From an uncultured Verrucomicrobiota bacterium (GTDB lineage Bacteria; Verrucomicrobiota; Verrucomicrobiia; Limisphaerales; CAIMTB01), in the NCBI GenBank assembly GCA_903844265.1, contig CAIMTB010000289.1:1-33366 (forward strand): a stretch of DNA of 33,366 bases, written 5' to 3'. Under the pieces are notes generated by a model that saw only the letters and a program-made list of their open reading frames with translations, made no database searches and was not told the DNA's origin. Shown here one piece after another: positions 15,146 to 33,270 of the stretch. Each line of letters begins with the position of its first letter. The first letter of the stretch is position 1. Both the position numbers and the translations under genes were made by a program.

Positions 15146-15688
15146 ATGAATTCCAGGCTTTACAAGAAATTCGTCGAGGAAGTCAAACCGTCCCTCCTGG
15201 GCAACGGACGTTTCAAGAACGTCCACGAAGTGCCCAAATTGGAGAAGATCGTCATCAACATGGGCGTGAGCGCCTCGTTGGAGAAGGTGGCGGTTGACGA
15301 CGCGGCCAAGGACATGACCGCGATCGCCGGCCAAAAGCCGGTCATCACCAAGGCCAAGAAGAGCGTCGCCAACTTCAAGCTCCGAAAGGGGCAGAATGTG
15401 GGTTGCTGCGTCACGCTCCGCCGAGACCGGATGTACGAGTTCTTCGACCGGCTTGTCGCCACGGCACTGCCGGGAATCCGCGACTTCCGCGGACTGAACC
15501 CGCGCCGATTCGATGGCCGCGGAAACTACACGATAGGGATTTCTGACCAGACGATCTTTCCTGAGATCGATCTGGACAAGATCAAGCGGCATCAGGGAAT
15601 GGACATCACCATTGTCACGACCGCGGCGACGGACGAGCAGGCCCACGAACTGCTCAAGCTTATGGGTTTTCCGTTCGCAGAACGCTGA
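15146..15688 (+). CDS. rplE: 50S ribosomal protein uL5 (L5)
   Basis: L5 binds 5S rRNA in the central protuberance and contacts P-site tRNA. The 180-residue product starts MNSRLYKKFVEEVKPSLL and contains VPKLEKIVINMGVS, GQKPVITKAKKSVANFKLRKG, and the C-terminal GIRDFRGLNPRRFDGRGNYTIG, matching the family throughout. Length is normal. A 42-base gap to rpsN follows. Confidence 0.98.
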   Translation: MNSRLYKKFVEEVKPSLLGNGRFKNVHEVPKLEKIVINMGVSASLEKVAVDDAAKDMTAIAGQKPVITKAKKSVANFKLRKGQNVGCCVTLRRDRMYEFFDRLVATALPGIRDFRGLNPRRFDGRGNYTIGISDQTIFPEIDLDKIKRHQGMDITIVTTAATDEQAHELLKLMGFPFAER

Positions 15689-26067: not shown

Positions 26068-26276
26068 GTTGGCGGGCGAGGAATCGATGGTTCTTCGGGG
26101 CAGCAGGGAAAATTTTGCCGCTCTACGACTCACCGGGTGGTTGGGTTGTTGGGGGACCTGCGTAAGTAATTGATCTTCAGTGGTGCGCTCGGCTGGCATC
26201 GTGTCTGCTGCGCATAGCGAGCCATGTCTACGAGACGGGGGTGCCAGGACGGCATTCCGAGGGGCTGAATGATTCC

Positions 26277-29200
26277 ATGAATACGCCGCTGCCGACCGGG
26301 TCGTCCCACCTAGGTTCCAGGTCTGATTCTTCAGTTCCCGACGATTTCTGCCTGGTCCCCGGTTACCAGTCGCGTACGACGCCCGAGTACTATGTTGATT
26401 CGGCGACTCGCGACACCGGCATCGTCTGGCAGCCGGACGTCTACCCGGTGGCTGCGGTTGTCGCCCGGCAGCTTGGGTGCTTTCACATTCTGGACATTGG
26501 GTGCGGTGATGGCGCGAAGCTCACTCCGCTTCATCCCGAGTTTCTGGTGACCGGTGTGGATTACGGCCAGAATCTGGATTATTGCCGCAGTCACTATGGG
26601 TTCGGGCAGTGGCTTGAGGCGGATTTTGAGAGCGCCGATTTTCTGTTGATACCTGAGGCGGTTCTCGCGCGCACCGTGGTGGTGTGTTCAGACGTGATTG
26701 AGCATCTGGTGGACCCTCGTGCGTTGTTGAGGTTGATCAGGATGCTGCTGCGCCATGCTCCGTATGCGGTGCTGTCCACTCCCGAGCGTGAGGTGGTTCG
26801 CGGGGTGGAGCACCGAGGGCCTTCGCCAAACCGGGCTCACGTGCGTGAATGGAGTCTGGTGGAGTTGGGTCGCCTGTTTGCTCTTGCCGGATTGCGCCCC
26901 GATTTTCTCGGACTGACCCGAAGTAATTCCCAGGGGCCGTTTGCGGGAACCATCTTTACGATGATCCGGGGTCGGGGGGAGGGCCTTGGTCTTTTCCAAG
27001 GGGCACCGCAGCGCTCGGTGGTAGGGATCAAGGGTGATCAGATCGAGATCGTGACACCCGGTGGGCAGCTGATCCCGGGTTTGACGGGAAGGGGGGCAGT
27101 GGTGGCGGTCAGTGACTCAGGTGGGGATCGGGGACCCGGCTCGTCGGGATCCGAGGAGACCAACGATCAACTTGGGGAGGTCAGGGAATGGGCTCTTCGT
27201 GAGCAGGCGAGCCGTCGGTTGGCCGAGCAGCGGACAGCTGACATTCGGAAGCAGATGGAACTGTCGCTCGCGCAGCTTCGAGGCGAGATGCATGCCGCCC
27301 TGAAGGGGCGGGTCGGCTTGCTTGAGTCAGCGCAGGTGCAGGCCTATGTCCGGTGTCGATCCAGCCTGGAGGTGGGCCGTGCTTTGGCACGCCTTGGGCA
27401 GCGCGATGCGGCAGTTGCGTCGCTCATGGAAGGTTTGAAGGTTGTTCCCGCGCTGGAGCAACCGGCGGTGGTGCTTGAGGTGCTGACCGAGTGCGGTCGT
27501 GCTCTTGTGCCTTTGGACCGTGGTCTGGCGGGCCGGACACTGGAGCAGGCGGATCAGCTTGCCCGGGCGATTGGCAGCGCGAAGGCGCTCGAGGATGTGG
27601 CGGCCTCTCGGGCCTTGCTTCGTCAGGGAACTTCGGAAGAGGCGCCCGCTCTCCTCGTTTCTGTCGTCATTCCCTGCTTCCGTCAGGCTGGGCTATTGTC
27701 GGAAGCGGTCCTGAGCGTGGTCGATCAAACCTTCGCGGGCTGGGAAATCGTCATTGTCAACGACGGCAGCCCCGACGACACGTCCGCCGTGGCGCGAAGG
27801 CTCGCGGCCCGCCATCCTGACCGGCGCATCCGACTCATCGAAAAGCCGAATGGTGGATTGTCGAGCGCGCGGAATGCGGGGGTCCGGGCGGCGGCGGGGA
27901 AATACATTCTTCCGCTGGATGCGGACGACAAGATCGAGTCCACGATGCTGGCGGAATTGGTGCCGCTTCTTGAGGCGAGACCTGAGTTGGGCTTCGTTTA
28001 TGGGCACATCCGGCATTTTGGGGACCGGACCGATGAGTATCCGCTGCCTGACTTCGACAGGGACACGCTGGTATTGAAGGATAACATCGTCTGTGTTTGT
28101 TCTCTCTTCCGTAAGCCCGCGTGGGAGCAGGTTGGGGGATACAATGAGGCGATGCGGGAGGGTTATGAGGACTGGGATTTCTGGATCAGCCTGGTCGAGC
28201 GCGGATGGCTTGGCTTCTGTGTGCACAAGCCGTTGTTTCTCTACCGGAAACACGGGCGGAGCATGCTGTCTGGAGCCAATGAAAAGCGCCAGCGCCTCAT
28301 CGCCAGGATCATGCTCAACCATCCGCGGATGTATGATTCCGCGGCGGCGAAATGGGCGCAGGAAGTTCTCGGGGACGCCGGTTCGCCGGCCGCTGGGAAG
28401 GTGGGCGATGGGAACGGTGTGTCGCAGCCCGATTCCGTCGCCTCGGCAGGCGGGTCGGTTTATGCCGGCGGGCCGGATGGTCCTGGCCTGAAGGCGCCCG
28501 CTGAGGGTCGGCGGGGGTTGGTGATCACCTACCTCATCAGTTCCGTGCAGGGCGTGACGGGTGGCAATATCACGTTGCTGCGGCAGGCTCAGGAGTTCCG
28601 GAACCGTGGGCACCAAGTCACGATCGTCAGCTACACCCCCAAGCCCGGATGGTTTGGTGGGGACGTTGCGGTGGTGCAGGTCCCGCAGGGCACCCCTTTG
28701 GCGAGCGCGGTTCCCCCCAGCGATGTGACCATCGCCACGTATTTCACGAACGCGGCTGAACTTCTGGCTGTGAGTTCGTGCGCCAGGATCTACTACGCCC
28801 AGGGCGATCAATTTGTCTTCGGTGATGCCGATGTCGTGGGAAATGCGGCCCACCATCCGCTGCAGGAGCTATCCCGTCATTCCTATCTCCTTCCGGGCGT
28901 CCGATTCGTGGCGAACTCGAACAATCTGGCGAATGCAGTCGAGAAACTCACGGGGCGATGGGCTGACGCGGTGCTGCCGGTATGTACGGATCAGCAGATT
29001 TTCCGTCCCTTGACGAGGGCGCTGCCAGGCTCGCGATGCCGCATCCTGGTGGTGGGTCCGGACACCCGGGGCACGCCGGGGGAACCGCTTCTCTTCAAGG
29101 GGATCCAGGATATTCGGGATGCGATGGAGATACTTGGTCGTCGGAACATTCCTATCACCGTCGTCCGGATCTCCTCCTCACGACCCGAGATCTTTTCGAC

Positions 29201-31598
29201 ATATCCTTGTGAGTTTCATGTCCGCCCGACGGACGAGATGAAGACGGTTCTCTATGGCACGGCGGACATACTGGTGTACGCATCCCATTATGATTCCTGT
29301 CCGCGTCCGCCGCAGGAGGGGATGGCGGCGGGTTGTGCGGTCGTCTGCACCTCGACTTCCGGGGCGCTGGAGTACTGTCGGGATGGGGATAATTCGTTGC
29401 TTGTTCCCATCAAGTCGCCGGAGGCGATTGCTGGTGCGGTGGAGAGGCTTGTTCGTGACCGATCGCTTCGTGAGCGACTGGTGGCGGGCGGGATGGAGAC
29501 TGCCCGGCAATATCCGCAGGAGCGTGAATGGAATGAGATGGAGGCGCTCCTGTGGCGCTTCGTTGAGGAGGAGTCCGGGCGCGGTCATGGGGTGAATGGG
29601 GGCGACGCGCAGGGCGGGGAGAAGCCGCCTGCTGCGTCGGGATCGTCTCAAGGGCTTCCTGCGTGTGCCCAACTCGGGAATCTAGAGCCGGCCTGCGAGC
29701 TTATCCGGCGCAAAGATTGGCGTGGAGCCTGGGAGACCACGATGGCGCAGATCCATCATCGGCCGTTCCATCCGGAGGCTTATCTTCAGCTGGCAGAGAT
29801 CGCCAAGGCGGTCGGTGATTCGGTGTCGGCCAGGCATTGTGCCCAGCGCGCCCGTGACTTCGCACCCGACTGGAAGCCGGCGAGGCAGTTTTTTCAACGC
29901 GCGCTGAAGGGGAACTCACGCCCGGAATGGCTCTCACTTCCCGCCGAACTTGGCGTGGCGAAGTCCGAGCGTCGACCGACCCTGTCGGTGTGCATGATCG
30001 TGCGCAACGAGGAGAAGTTTCTTGCGGGTTCCCTGGCCTCGATCCGCGATCTGGCGTCACAGATCATCGTGGTCGATACAGGTTCCACCGATCGTACCGT
30101 GGAGATCGCGAAAGAGAACGGCGGCGAAGTTCATTCGTTCACATGGGCGGACGATTTTGGAGCCGCGCGGAACCGCGCCCTTGAATTTGCGGTGTGCGAC
30201 TGGGTTCTGATGTTGGATGCCGATGAGGAGCTGTCTCACGGCGCGGTGGGCGAGATCCGGCGGATGATGGGTTTGGCGTCGGTTGCCGCGTGGCGGTTGC
30301 CGATCGTGGATGCCAGTGACGAGGCGGGCGGGGCGAGTTATGTGCCTCGGCTGTTCCGCAATGCTCCCGGGCTTTACTATCTGGGCCGCATCCACGAGCA
30401 GGTCTTTTCCAGCCTGGAACCGCTCCGGGTGAGGTGGGGATTGGACAACCGGCTCGGGACGGCCAAGCTGCTGCACCATGGGTATTCCTCGGAGGTGACC
30501 CGGGATCGCCGGAAGATCGAGCGAAATCTTCGTCTCCTCGAGATGGATCTCGTCGAAAGGCCGGGGGATCCCAATCTCCTGATGAGCCTCGGCCTTGAGT
30601 TGGTGCGCTCGGGTCGACGGGACCAAGGACTCGATCGCTACCGGCAGGCCTTTGCGTTGTTAGGCAGGCAGGCGGTGTCCGACGTGGTTCCCGAGTTGCG
30701 TGAGACCTTGTTGAGCCAGTTCGCAACGCACCTGATGGCGGCAAAGCATCACGCGGAGCTCATTCGGGTCCTGCGATCCCCGATGGCGTTGGCACAGGGA
30801 GGGCTGAGTGCGTCGTTGCATTTCATCCTGGCGCTGACCCAGATCGAGTTGGGAGATCCTGCAGCGGCCATTGAGAATCTGCGGCAGTGTCTCGAGAAGA
30901 AAGACCACCCTTCCCTGGCCCCGATTCACAAGGGGATCCTCAGTGCGGCCCCCTTGCACTGCCTGGCGGTCTGTCTGCAACGTCAGGGGGATAGCCCGGG
31001 CGCGGCCCAGGCCTTTCAGAGAGGGTTGGAGGTCGATGGGACCTCGCGACCTTTGCGCTCGGATTATGCCGCGTTCCTGGCGGCGACAGGGCAAATCCCC
31101 GAGGCGCTGCAGGTCCATTACGCCCTTGCCCAGGAGCATCCCGGCGATGTCGCGGCATGGCTGAAGGGAGGCGAATTGGCCCTGAAATCTCCTGAACTTC
31201 TCGAAGTCGCAGTCGACTGGACCGACGCCGCGTGCGGTCATCATCCGGCGGATCCGGAGCTGGCTGTCCAGCGGATGGAGGCCTTGATGCTTTCCGGAAA
31301 GCACGAGGAGGCGTTGCCTTGGGTGCGGCGCTGTCTCGCCGTTGAGGGTTCCCCGCGGGCCGCGGCGGCGCGGGTCATCTGTGAATTAGCCGGTGGCGGC
31401 GTCGAATCTTTGGCGCCGCCTCCCGACGAAGTGCTTGCCAGTCGCGAATTCGCGCAATGGTATCGTCGCCTTTTCGAATACGGTGCGCGGGATCTGGTGT
31501 TGCTGTTGAATTCCCGGGTGGCTGAGTTGGCGAAGGTGTTGCCCACGGCGGCTACGGCGCTGGCCGCGGCTTTGGCGGGGGAGGAAAGTGCGGGGTGA
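26277..31598 (+). CDS. Giant multidomain protein: methyltransferase-GT2-GT4-GT2-TPR
   Basis: This protein of about 1,773 residues appears to be a glycan assembly enzyme. Residues 60-220 hold a class I SAM methyltransferase (ILDIGCGDG at 71-79; CSDVIEHL near 135). Residues 300-455 are helical, with coiled-coil and repeat character. Residues about 459-690 are a GT2 glycosyltransferase (VSVVIPCF, DADD at 548-551, EDWDFW near 630). Residues about 746-1110 resemble GT4 (TGGNITLL; D1006-x7-E1014 then GMAAGCAVV). A two-TPR linker (1139-1212) precedes a second GT2 of the TPR-associated type (SVCMIVRNEE from 1236, DADEE at 1314-1318). TPR-like helices fill 1420-1773. Low-complexity Gly/Ser linkers lie near 700-745 and 1105-1135. 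ATG 26277 (GAGGGG 12 bases upstream) or GTG 26241 could start it. It converges on a flagellin gene, so flagellin glycosylation is possible. No signal peptide or membrane helix is visible. Confidence 0.9.
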   Translation: MNTPLPTGSSHLGSRSDSSVPDDFCLVPGYQSRTTPEYYVDSATRDTGIVWQPDVYPVAAVVARQLGCFHILDIGCGDGAKLTPLHPEFLVTGVDYGQNLDYCRSHYGFGQWLEADFESADFLLIPEAVLARTVVVCSDVIEHLVDPRALLRLIRMLLRHAPYAVLSTPEREVVRGVEHRGPSPNRAHVREWSLVELGRLFALAGLRPDFLGLTRSNSQGPFAGTIFTMIRGRGEGLGLFQGAPQRSVVGIKGDQIEIVTPGGQLIPGLTGRGAVVAVSDSGGDRGPGSSGSEETNDQLGEVREWALREQASRRLAEQRTADIRKQMELSLAQLRGEMHAALKGRVGLLESAQVQAYVRCRSSLEVGRALARLGQRDAAVASLMEGLKVVPALEQPAVVLEVLTECGRALVPLDRGLAGRTLEQADQLARAIGSAKALEDVAASRALLRQGTSEEAPALLVSVVIPCFRQAGLLSEAVLSVVDQTFAGWEIVIVNDGSPDDTSAVARRLAARHPDRRIRLIEKPNGGLSSARNAGVRAAAGKYILPLDADDKIESTMLAELVPLLEARPELGFVYGHIRHFGDRTDEYPLPDFDRDTLVLKDNIVCVCSLFRKPAWEQVGGYNEAMREGYEDWDFWISLVERGWLGFCVHKPLFLYRKHGRSMLSGANEKRQRLIARIMLNHPRMYDSAAAKWAQEVLGDAGSPAAGKVGDGNGVSQPDSVASAGGSVYAGGPDGPGLKAPAEGRRGLVITYLISSVQGVTGGNITLLRQAQEFRNRGHQVTIVSYTPKPGWFGGDVAVVQVPQGTPLASAVPPSDVTIATYFTNAAELLAVSSCARIYYAQGDQFVFGDADVVGNAAHHPLQELSRHSYLLPGVRFVANSNNLANAVEKLTGRWADAVLPVCTDQQIFRPLTRALPGSRCRILVVGPDTRGTPGEPLLFKGIQDIRDAMEILGRRNIPITVVRISSSRPEIFSTYPCEFHVRPTDEMKTVLYGTADILVYASHYDSCPRPPQEGMAAGCAVVCTSTSGALEYCRDGDNSLLVPIKSPEAIAGAVERLVRDRSLRERLVAGGMETARQYPQEREWNEMEALLWRFVEEESGRGHGVNGGDAQGGEKPPAASGSSQGLPACAQLGNLEPACELIRRKDWRGAWETTMAQIHHRPFHPEAYLQLAEIAKAVGDSVSARHCAQRARDFAPDWKPARQFFQRALKGNSRPEWLSLPAELGVAKSERRPTLSVCMIVRNEEKFLAGSLASIRDLASQIIVVDTGSTDRTVEIAKENGGEVHSFTWADDFGAARNRALEFAVCDWVLMLDADEELSHGAVGEIRRMMGLASVAAWRLPIVDASDEAGGASYVPRLFRNAPGLYYLGRIHEQVFSSLEPLRVRWGLDNRLGTAKLLHHGYSSEVTRDRRKIERNLRLLEMDLVERPGDPNLLMSLGLELVRSGRRDQGLDRYRQAFALLGRQAVSDVVPELRETLLSQFATHLMAAKHHAELIRVLRSPMALAQGGLSASLHFILALTQIELGDPAAAIENLRQCLEKKDHPSLAPIHKGILSAAPLHCLAVCLQRQGDSPGAAQAFQRGLEVDGTSRPLRSDYAAFLAATGQIPEALQVHYALAQEHPGDVAAWLKGGELALKSPELLEVAVDWTDAACGHHPADPELAVQRMEALMLSGKHEEALPWVRRCLAVEGSPRAAAARVICELAGGGVESLAPPPDEVLASREFAQWYRRLFEYGARDLVLLLNSRVAELAKVLPTAATALAAALAGEESAG

Positions 31599-32296: not shown

Positions 32297-33103
32297 TTAC
32301 TGGAGGAGCCGGAGGGCACCGTTGGGCTGGGCATTGGCCTGCGCGAGCATGGCCGTACCCGATTGCACCAAGATATTGTACCGAGCGTACTCCGTGCTCT
32401 CTTCCGCGACATCGACGTCCTTGATGCGGCTGTTGGCAGAACTGAGCGAGGTCTTTTGGACGCTCAATTGCTCGTTCGTGTAGTTCAGTCGGACCATGTT
32501 GGCCCCGACCGTGGCTCGATCCATCGAGATCTGGGTGATGGCGGCCTTGACATTCGTCAGTGCCGTCGCGGCCGAGGCGGTGTCGCCTATGCTCGACCCC
32601 GTCGCCGTCGTGTACGTTCCGTTGCCACTGATGTCGACTCCGGCCATGCCGTAGGTCCCCGCGTCGGAGTCAATGGTGACGTTCAGGGTGGTGGCTGAGA
32701 ACAGCGAGACACCGTTGAAGTCCTTTGTTCCGATGTTGGTGACGTAGGCTCCGAGTTCCTGGAACTCTTTGTCGTAGAGCGCCCGGTCGGAATCCGACTT
32801 GGCGACATCTTGAGACAGCATGGCGAGTTCGCTCATACGATCCAGGGCCTTGGTAGCCTTCTTGAGGAACCCGTCCTGGGTCTGGGTGAACGAGATCGCG
32901 CTGCCGATGTTGTTTGACGCTGCATTGATACGATTGATTTGTGCGTCGAATCGCATGGAGACCGCAAGCCCAGCCGAGTCATCCTCCGGAGAGGTGATCT
33001 TGGATCCCGAAGAAAGTCGGGTGAGTGATTTCGCCAACTTGCTGGACGAATCAGCAAGCAGTTGAGCACTATTCTGAGCCGCGATATTGGTATTGATGAT
33101 CAT
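32297..33103 (-). CDS. Flagellin
   Basis: Flagellin polymerises into the flagellar filament after export through the flagellar type III system. The 268-residue protein has the conserved N-terminal D0/D1 region (MIINTNIAAQNSAQLL, then LTRLSSGSKITSPEDDSAGLAVS) and the C-terminal D1/D0 region (STEYARYNILVQSGTAMLAQANAQPNGALRLLQ). A short central Ser/Thr/Gly/Ala-rich part (about 130-195) stands in for the larger D2/D3 domains of other species. Such Ser/Thr-rich surfaces are common O-glycosylation sites. There is no Cys. GGAAAGAG precedes the ATG. A sigma-28-type promoter lies 141-167 bases upstream and a terminator downstream, so it is a single-gene unit. Confidence 0.97.
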   Translation of the reverse strand: MIINTNIAAQNSAQLLADSSSKLAKSLTRLSSGSKITSPEDDSAGLAVSMRFDAQINRINAASNNIGSAISFTQTQDGFLKKATKALDRMSELAMLSQDVAKSDSDRALYDKEFQELGAYVTNIGTKDFNGVSLFSATTLNVTIDSDAGTYGMAGVDISGNGTYTTATGSSIGDTASAATALTNVKAAITQISMDRATVGANMVRLNYTNEQLSVQKTSLSSANSRIKDVDVAEESTEYARYNILVQSGTAMLAQANAQPNGALRLLQ

Positions 33104-33243
33104 AACCGTACTCTTTCCGTGAGTCGCCCCGTGAGAGGCCTAAGTGAATTTGGCGGCGTCCCTGCCGCGAGGAGGATTTGTCTGAGGCATCCCCCCTTTA
33201 ACCTCACCGGCGATTCCTGGCCGCCGGCCACCTTGCAATTGAA

Positions 33244-33270
33244 TTATCGGCCGGATCCGGATCCACTTTA
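33244..33270 (-). promoter_or_regulatory. Sigma-28 (FliA) promoter of flagellin
   Basis: Read on the - strand this is TAAA, 15 bases, then GCCGATAA. The known sigma-28 consensus is TAAAGTTT-N11-GCCGATAA; the -10 matches 8 of 8 and the -35 matches TAAAGT plus two changes (TAAAGTGG). Spacing is exact. Transcription should begin near 33237, giving a 5' leader of about 134 bases before the flagellin ATG. The spacer contains a repeated GGATCC. Confidence 0.88.

Follow-up and report, generated by a model that had tools for sequence, protein, structure and literature searches.

Control of flagellin synthesis by CsrA and FliW has been found in print for Bacillus, Clostridioides and Campylobacter, among the matches listed in the literature search (including PMC6529632 and PMC4894983). 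In Bacillus subtilis, CsrA blocks the Shine-Dalgarno site of the hag mRNA and FliW relieves the block (PMC6529632). The flaA transcript of Campylobacter jejuni carries two stem-loops with ANGGA loops, the second of which lies over the ribosome-binding site, and both CsrA binding and its antagonism by FliW were shown (PMC4894983). The target of CsrA is a hairpin with an ANGGAN loop, for which SELEX gave the consensus RUACARGGAUGU (PMC7652899). Termite-flg (RF01729) and flg-Rhizobiales (RF01736), two structured RNAs whose names refer to flagellar genes, are listed by name in PMC2864571. The flaA leader of C. jejuni is the closest experimental parallel to the locus described here.

The stretch of DNA that was analysed (the window) comprises 33,366 nucleotides and is an entire contig (C289) of the 6.01-Mb genome, in 671 contigs, of an uncultured Verrucomicrobiota bacterium. 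At its end lies a flagellin gene, whose nearest named relatives by flagellin sequence are Verrucomicrobiota, including Limisphaera, Limisphaerales and Pedosphaera. Judging from the titles of these relatives, the order is probably Limisphaerales. The original prediction called this flagellin stand-alone, which is correct for the gene in the window; the genome has three flagellin genes in all, on contigs C289, C659 and C459. The gene and its promoter elements are as follows.

32297..33103, minus strand: flagellin gene, 268 aa (Flagellin_N 9.4e-25, Flagellin_C 1.3e-23)
33244..33251, minus strand: sigma-28 promoter -10 element GCCGATAA, read from the sequence; its CCGAT is nearly invariant in 60 flagellin promoters, which were picked by a score favouring CCGAT, the scored columns being conserved partly by this selection
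33267..33270, minus strand: sigma-28 promoter -35 element TAAA, read from the sequence, the exact pattern and the column composition over the 60 flagellin promoters

The pattern TAAA-N15-GCCGATAA is the sigma-28 (FliA) consensus of E. coli and its relatives. A box of this kind with exact spacing had been noted and was confirmed as TAAAGTGGATCCGGATCCGGCCGATAA at 33244-33270 of the minus strand, with a spacing of 15; the flagellin ATG lies 140 nt downstream of it. The window holds this single match to the pattern, and 100 dinucleotide shuffles gave none. Over the whole genome the exact pattern was not enriched (1 match versus 1+1 for the reversed pattern), and at up to two mismatches 80 matches were found versus 143 in the control. 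It is the place of the box and not its genome-wide count that lifts the promoter above chance, because a best site with at most two mismatches was present in 44 of 99 upstream regions of related flagellins and 43 of these 44 sites sit 95-160 nt before the start codon. These 99 regions are distinct, nine of them coming from outside Verrucomicrobiota by their titles; one of 100 groups was too short and was dropped, and partial matches without a start (L149, L151, L159) were left out. The best site had no mismatch in 6 regions, one in 15, two in 23, three in 20 and more in 35. With a looser score, a box was placed at 95-160 nt in 60 of the 99 regions, 48 of these at 134-157 nt, and the 60 sites gave T[A/C]AAG...CCGAT as the promoter core of the relatives. 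The second flagellin of the genome (contig C659) is preceded by TAAGCATTTCAGGACTCCGGCCGATGA, with two mismatches, 139 nt before its ATG.

The refined box TMAAG-N14-KCCGATR had six matches in the genome versus four for the reversed control, the gene context being read for the six matches and not for the four control sites. Three of the six precede the flagellin in the window, an orphan copy of the leader described below (contig C154) and fliD (25 nt before its ATG). The other three are doubtful, namely cheX, whose start the box overlaps, a gene for a carbonic anhydrase at a distance of 258 nt, and an ORF of no known kind. The second of these genes (L244 1785-3026, contig C39), lying after a sigma-28-like box, encodes a carbonic anhydrase domain followed, as judged by eye, by a membrane chemoreceptor-like part. 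On this comparison of sequences, the flagellin at the window end is confirmed to have a flagellar-type (sigma-28) promoter; the promoter itself is ordinary.

Convergent with the flagellin gene, positions 26241-31598 of the plus strand encode a protein of 1785 residues with a methyltransferase, several glycosyltransferase and TPR domains, which is possibly a flagellin glycosylation enzyme. The statement that no such promoter precedes this giant glycosyltransferase holds, since the best of 441 start positions on the strand of the gene has mismatches at 5 of 12 positions.

The genome was expected to encode FliA, and a FliA-family sigma factor was found on contig C459 (TIGR02479, 243.9 bits, cut-off 189.6), flanked by motA and by a gene for an SRP54-type GTPase that was read as flhF. 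Its neighbours on this contig, assigned by Pfam, include FlhA, the SRP54-type GTPase, MotA, two FlgE/F/G proteins, FlgH, FlgI, FlgN and FlgK; a flagellin-like protein on the same contig was read as flgL from its place. A checkpoint of the FlgM type, which had been considered probable, did not find support: PF04316 had no match in 30 genomes including this one and was positive in 3 of 14 control genomes, a search that a very divergent FlgM may have escaped. Two ORFs before flgK were tested and neither was FlgM: one encodes FlgN, and the second was read as a rod-binding protein, its score falling under the Pfam cut-off. Among the other genomes, G011 (loci L026, L041, L202) had four flagellin matches, no FliA above the cut-off and no leader, and G014 (locus L003) had a strong FliA and no flagellin match.

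The 140 nt between the box and the start codon were examined because the distance of the box is fixed. The earlier account of the flagellin 5' region, sound as to the promoter, had missed a conserved structured leader between promoter and gene. The leader runs 5' to 3' in the order P1, P2 with a crossing stem, GAGG/CCTC with P3, P4, P5, P6 and ATG. The small hairpin P1 is absent or weak in the window copy; the other elements are placed as follows.

33104..33243, minus strand: structured 5' leader of the flagellin mRNA, 140 nt, identified by covariance model, pair counts and between-species similarity
33206..33232, minus strand: P2 hairpin, core CCGGCG/CGCCGG, forming with the short crossing stem GG/CC the proposed first H-type pseudoknot
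33202..33205, minus strand: GAGG, which pairs with CCTC in the P3 loop as the 5' strand of the second proposed pseudoknot
33171..33196, minus strand: P3 hairpin, in which all 6 pairs covary and which is present in the minimum-energy fold
33184..33187, minus strand: CCTC within the P3 loop, 3' strand of the proposed second pseudoknot
33153..33168, minus strand: P4 hairpin GCGGC-AGGGAC-GCCGC with an ANGGAN hexaloop closed by C-G, candidate CsrA site 1
33126..33139, minus strand: P5 hairpin, with a GCAA-type loop in many relatives, 89.3% paired
33110..33124, minus strand: P6 hairpin ACTC-ACGGAAA-GAGT with an ANGGA loop, overlapping the ribosome-binding site, candidate CsrA site 2

Forty-eight leaders scored at least 10 of 13 for a box at 130-160 nt, and 42 of them were aligned by sequence alone (A1); the other six were more than 85% identical to others and were dropped. 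The sequences of A1 were chosen for having the promoter, and six hairpins and two crossing stems can be seen in the alignment. Mean identity was compared over 300 random pairs of 41 dereplicated loci, the remaining A1 locus having no 140 nt of upstream DNA. It reached 0.636 in the leader versus 0.513 after shuffling and 0.701 in the first 140 nt of the flagellin gene, and in the 140 nt upstream of the promoter it was at the random level (0.508 versus 0.504 shuffled). A structure of 38 pairs had 85.5% of its A1 cells paired, versus 78.3% in shuffles and 41-48% when slid by one to three columns, where the slid controls favour the structure because it was drawn from A1 itself. Both-side changes were seen at 24 pairs versus 18.1 shuffled and in 129 cells versus 47.4, the shuffles ignoring relatedness. 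By helix, the share of paired cells in A1 was 71.5% for P1, 95.6% for P2, where all five main pairs covary, 72.2% for P3, 94.0% for P4, 89.3% for P5 and 88.4% for P6.

RNAalifold alone gave 13 pairs, in P2, P4 and P5 only, nine of them with compensatory change; crossing stems are outside what this program draws. Folded by itself, the window copy has P2, P3, P4, P5 and P6 in its minimum-energy structure, and the thermodynamic stability of this leader compared with shuffled sequence gave no signal (z -0.10). The covariance model matched the window at 33101-33252 with 102.4 bits, the window copy belonging to its training set. A wider alignment (A2), fitted to the nested pairs only, was built from 90 loci and holds 107 matches, 94 of them distinct, including most of the training set. 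The leader is a conserved, covarying folded RNA in one order of Verrucomicrobia, its nested structure resting on comparison between the aligned copies.

The two crossing stems were assessed on both alignments. On A1 the first one, of 3 bp, showed no clear gain over shuffles (91.3% versus 89.9% paired, 3 both-side cells versus 0.8). On A2 it was 90.7% paired with 9 both-side changes versus 2.8 shuffled; one slid control was 87.8% paired with no both-side change and another also had 9 both-side changes. The second crossing stem had 82.0% of its A1 cells paired versus 77.6% in shuffles, and 13 both-side cells versus 7.4; slid by one column, it gave a covariation of 0.301 versus 0.288 in place, with 13 both-side cells each. 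On A2 it was 82.8% paired and had 47 both-side changes versus 17.7 in shuffles and 4-24 in slid controls. The second pseudoknot (GAGG/CCTC) is thus likely, with moderate support, and the first (P2 with GG/CC) is plausible.

The loops of P4 and of the terminal hairpin P6 are the elements that recall CsrA targets. In A1, ANGGA was present in P4 of 37 of the 42 leaders and in P6 of all 42. In A2, 87 of 94 distinct leaders had it in P4, versus 7% of 3,287 background windows of like size, and all 94 had it within the last 33 nt, versus 12% of the background windows, although any Shine-Dalgarno site near the start yields a GGA too. A stem of 4 bp or longer enclosed the best ANGGA site in 88 of 99 rows for the P4 region and in 78 of 102 rows for the terminal one, versus 8.6% of 3,073 single ANGGA sites in the same loci, a comparison of the best site per row with single background sites that favours the leaders somewhat. 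Three of the 102 rows (L105, L049, L037) duplicate other loci, and in three the P4 region lacks ANGGA. Five more distant leaders (L033, L141, L143, L144, L146) keep the ANGGAN loop before the ATG on a different stem, gacaa...ttgtc. By its coordinates, the window leader has its two GGA motifs about 40 nt apart, a larger distance than the 18 nt quoted as the optimum in PMC4894983.

Genes for both partner proteins are present in the genome. On contig C459, fliW (15191-15649; PF02623, 2.8e-28) adjoins csrA (from 15669; PF02599, 8.8e-19), and the pair lies downstream of flgK, between the flgL-like gene and the third flagellin. CsrA scored above the NCBIfam cut-off; FliW was below the NCBIfam equivalog cut-offs and above the Pfam cut-off. 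The best PDB sequence matches of CsrA were 1t3o and 5dmb, which we take to be B. subtilis CsrA and the Geobacillus CsrA solved with FliW, respectively. Past its core domain the protein has a C-terminal tail, the part of CsrA that FliW is reported to contact (PMC7652899). The flagellin gene beside the fliW-csrA pair (L161 15950-16030) has no leader match, no box (best site with 6 mismatches) and no evident Shine-Dalgarno sequence before its ATG.

The distribution of the leader was surveyed with a covariance model of the nested pairs only (R1), at a threshold of E <= 1e-5 for the scan of the order; csrA was read in the present genome and fliW was surveyed over all 245 sampled genomes of the order. 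The leader was found in 88 of the 245, flagellin in 119 and FliW in 96. All 88 genomes with the leader have flagellin, 74 have FliW and 14 gave no FliW match; a further 20 genomes have flagellin and FliW yet no leader match, and 11 have flagellin with neither. The large scans used stricter filters and lost at least one weak match (G027, 1.8e-10 in a smaller scan). In a phylum sample of 387 genomes, flagellated or not, the leader matched in the present genome only. A flagellin gene starts directly after the leader in 41 of 46 leader loci, some of which overlap one another; the other five are three weak matches, one locus at a contig edge and the orphan.

The orphan (contig C154 31617-32273; L196, L197) has a box and a full leader of 76.5 bits, followed by an open frame of 163 codons that runs off the contig. 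For this frame, neither Pfam nor NCBIfam gave a match and 29 other genomes yielded no homologue, and its GC content by codon position was 0.63/0.58/0.63 versus 0.52/0.46/0.75 for the flagellin of the window. With no family match, no homologue and no coding-like GC pattern, it was rejected as a protein. The orphan leader could be what remains of a lost flagellin gene, or it could be a stand-alone CsrA-binding RNA; the flaA leader of C. jejuni itself titrates CsrA (PMC4894983).

We consider it probable that the flagellin transcript is made by sigma-28 and translated under the control of CsrA-FliW feedback, in the manner of hag and flaA, an extra pseudoknot domain being added here. RNA polymerase with FliA (sigma-28) would transcribe the gene from the box at 33244-33270, and we infer a start near 33237, giving an mRNA leader of about 134 nt. 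The leader would fold into the two proposed pseudoknots followed by P4, P5 and P6, so that P4 and P6 would expose ANGGA in their loops and P6 would cover the ribosome-binding site. A CsrA dimer presumably holds both loops, which would block translation. During flagellin export, when it is not bound to flagellin, FliW would lift this block, a step modelled on B. subtilis and C. jejuni. The simplest guess for the pseudoknot domain is that it positions the two CsrA hairpins or shields the 5' end of the mRNA.

Other explanations were weighed against this reading. That the promoter is a chance match and the flagellin is read from another promoter would fit the exact genome-wide matches, which are no commoner than those of the reversed control; it is scarcely credible, as related flagellins keep the box equally far from the start codon and the sequence preceding the box shows no conservation. 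We give equally little credence to a transcription attenuator formed between promoter and gene by P5 or another hairpin: P5 is indeed short and GC-rich, but no T run follows it in the window copy, nor does one appear as a pattern in the alignment. The leader might also be a passive stabiliser of the mRNA or a strong ribosome-binding site, its ANGGA loops being merely conserved Shine-Dalgarno-like sequence. GC-rich hairpins near the 5' end can protect mRNA, which would suit this leader, and the terminal GGA is a ribosome-binding site by its place before the ATG. Such a passive role is nevertheless improbable. The loop of P4 is located some 55-60 nt upstream of the ATG, too distant to act in ribosome binding, yet 87 of 94 leaders carry ANGGA in P4, usually with a stem closing the loop; and the terminal hairpin pairs the ribosome-binding region instead of freeing it.

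A somewhat less remote alternative, though still unlikely, is that the upstream half with its two pseudoknots is a sensor in its own right, for a small molecule or a flagellar protein, that alters access to the ribosome-binding site, CsrA being secondary. Compact pseudoknots with short connecting loops, which the proposed ones resemble, are typical of small ligand-binding RNAs, and the pseudoknot domain shows conservation of both sequence and pairing; moreover, the flaA leader of C. jejuni, as described in PMC4894983, has its two stem-loops within 45 nt and no such domain. Against this, the genes hint at no ligand, 41 of 46 leader loci preceding flagellin, and in the short, more distant leaders P1 and the first pseudoknot appear to be missing, with P4 and the terminal hairpin retained. 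A bolder extension combines such sensing with the gating by CsrA: the double-pseudoknot domain would sense a second messenger, FliW or unexported flagellin and act on a CsrA-gated ribosome-binding site, replacing the late checkpoint of FlgM in this order, with the C154 copy as a stand-alone CsrA-binding RNA. We regard this extension as speculative and put our weight on CsrA-FliW gating of a sigma-28 transcript.

The likely CsrA-FliW control of flagellin described here is a verrucomicrobial case, from genomes that gave no FlgM match. It also provides a defined RNA with covarying pairs that is open to direct probing, and a covariance model that locates flagellin genes and their promoters in uncultured genomes. 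If the pseudoknot domain binds a ligand of its own, it would be a new regulatory RNA.

Flagellin leaders of the CsrA type are known. The long leader, with its pair of proposed pseudoknots, is undescribed in Rfam 15, as scanned with eight copies, and in the open-licence literature, among the matches listed. When the window copy and seven related loci were scanned permissively against Rfam 15 (E up to 5), no family matched the leader, the weak matches in the scanned loci lying outside it. RF01729 and RF01736 likewise gave no leader match in the window region and the seven loci at E up to 5. Open-licence PubMed Central yielded, among the matches listed, no paper describing a leader RNA of verrucomicrobial flagellin genes. 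The taxa given for the two named RNAs in PMC2864571 are those of the termite hindgut and Rhizobiales, whereas the present leader is verrucomicrobial.

Compared with sigma-28 promoters of the E. coli type, the window copy has the same TAAA-N15-GCCGATAA. The 60 sites of the relatives differ from that type in having mostly A or C at the second base and mostly G after TAAA, and in the variation of their last two bases. With B. subtilis hag the locus shares the neighbouring fliW and csrA genes (PMC6529632); a pseudoknot domain is not described for hag in the available passages of that source, which give no fold at all. B. subtilis also has FlgM (PMC6529632, and as a control for PF04316), whereas none was found in the present genome. 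The likeness to C. jejuni flaA (PMC4894983) extends to sigma-28 transcription of flagellin, two ANGGA hairpins, a covered ribosome-binding site and the presence of both FliW and CsrA. The flaA 5'UTR is 45 nt long and consists of two stem-loops, according to the same source, whereas the leader in the window measures about 134-140 nt, its first CsrA-type hairpin being preceded by two proposed pseudoknots and separated from the second by one further hairpin.
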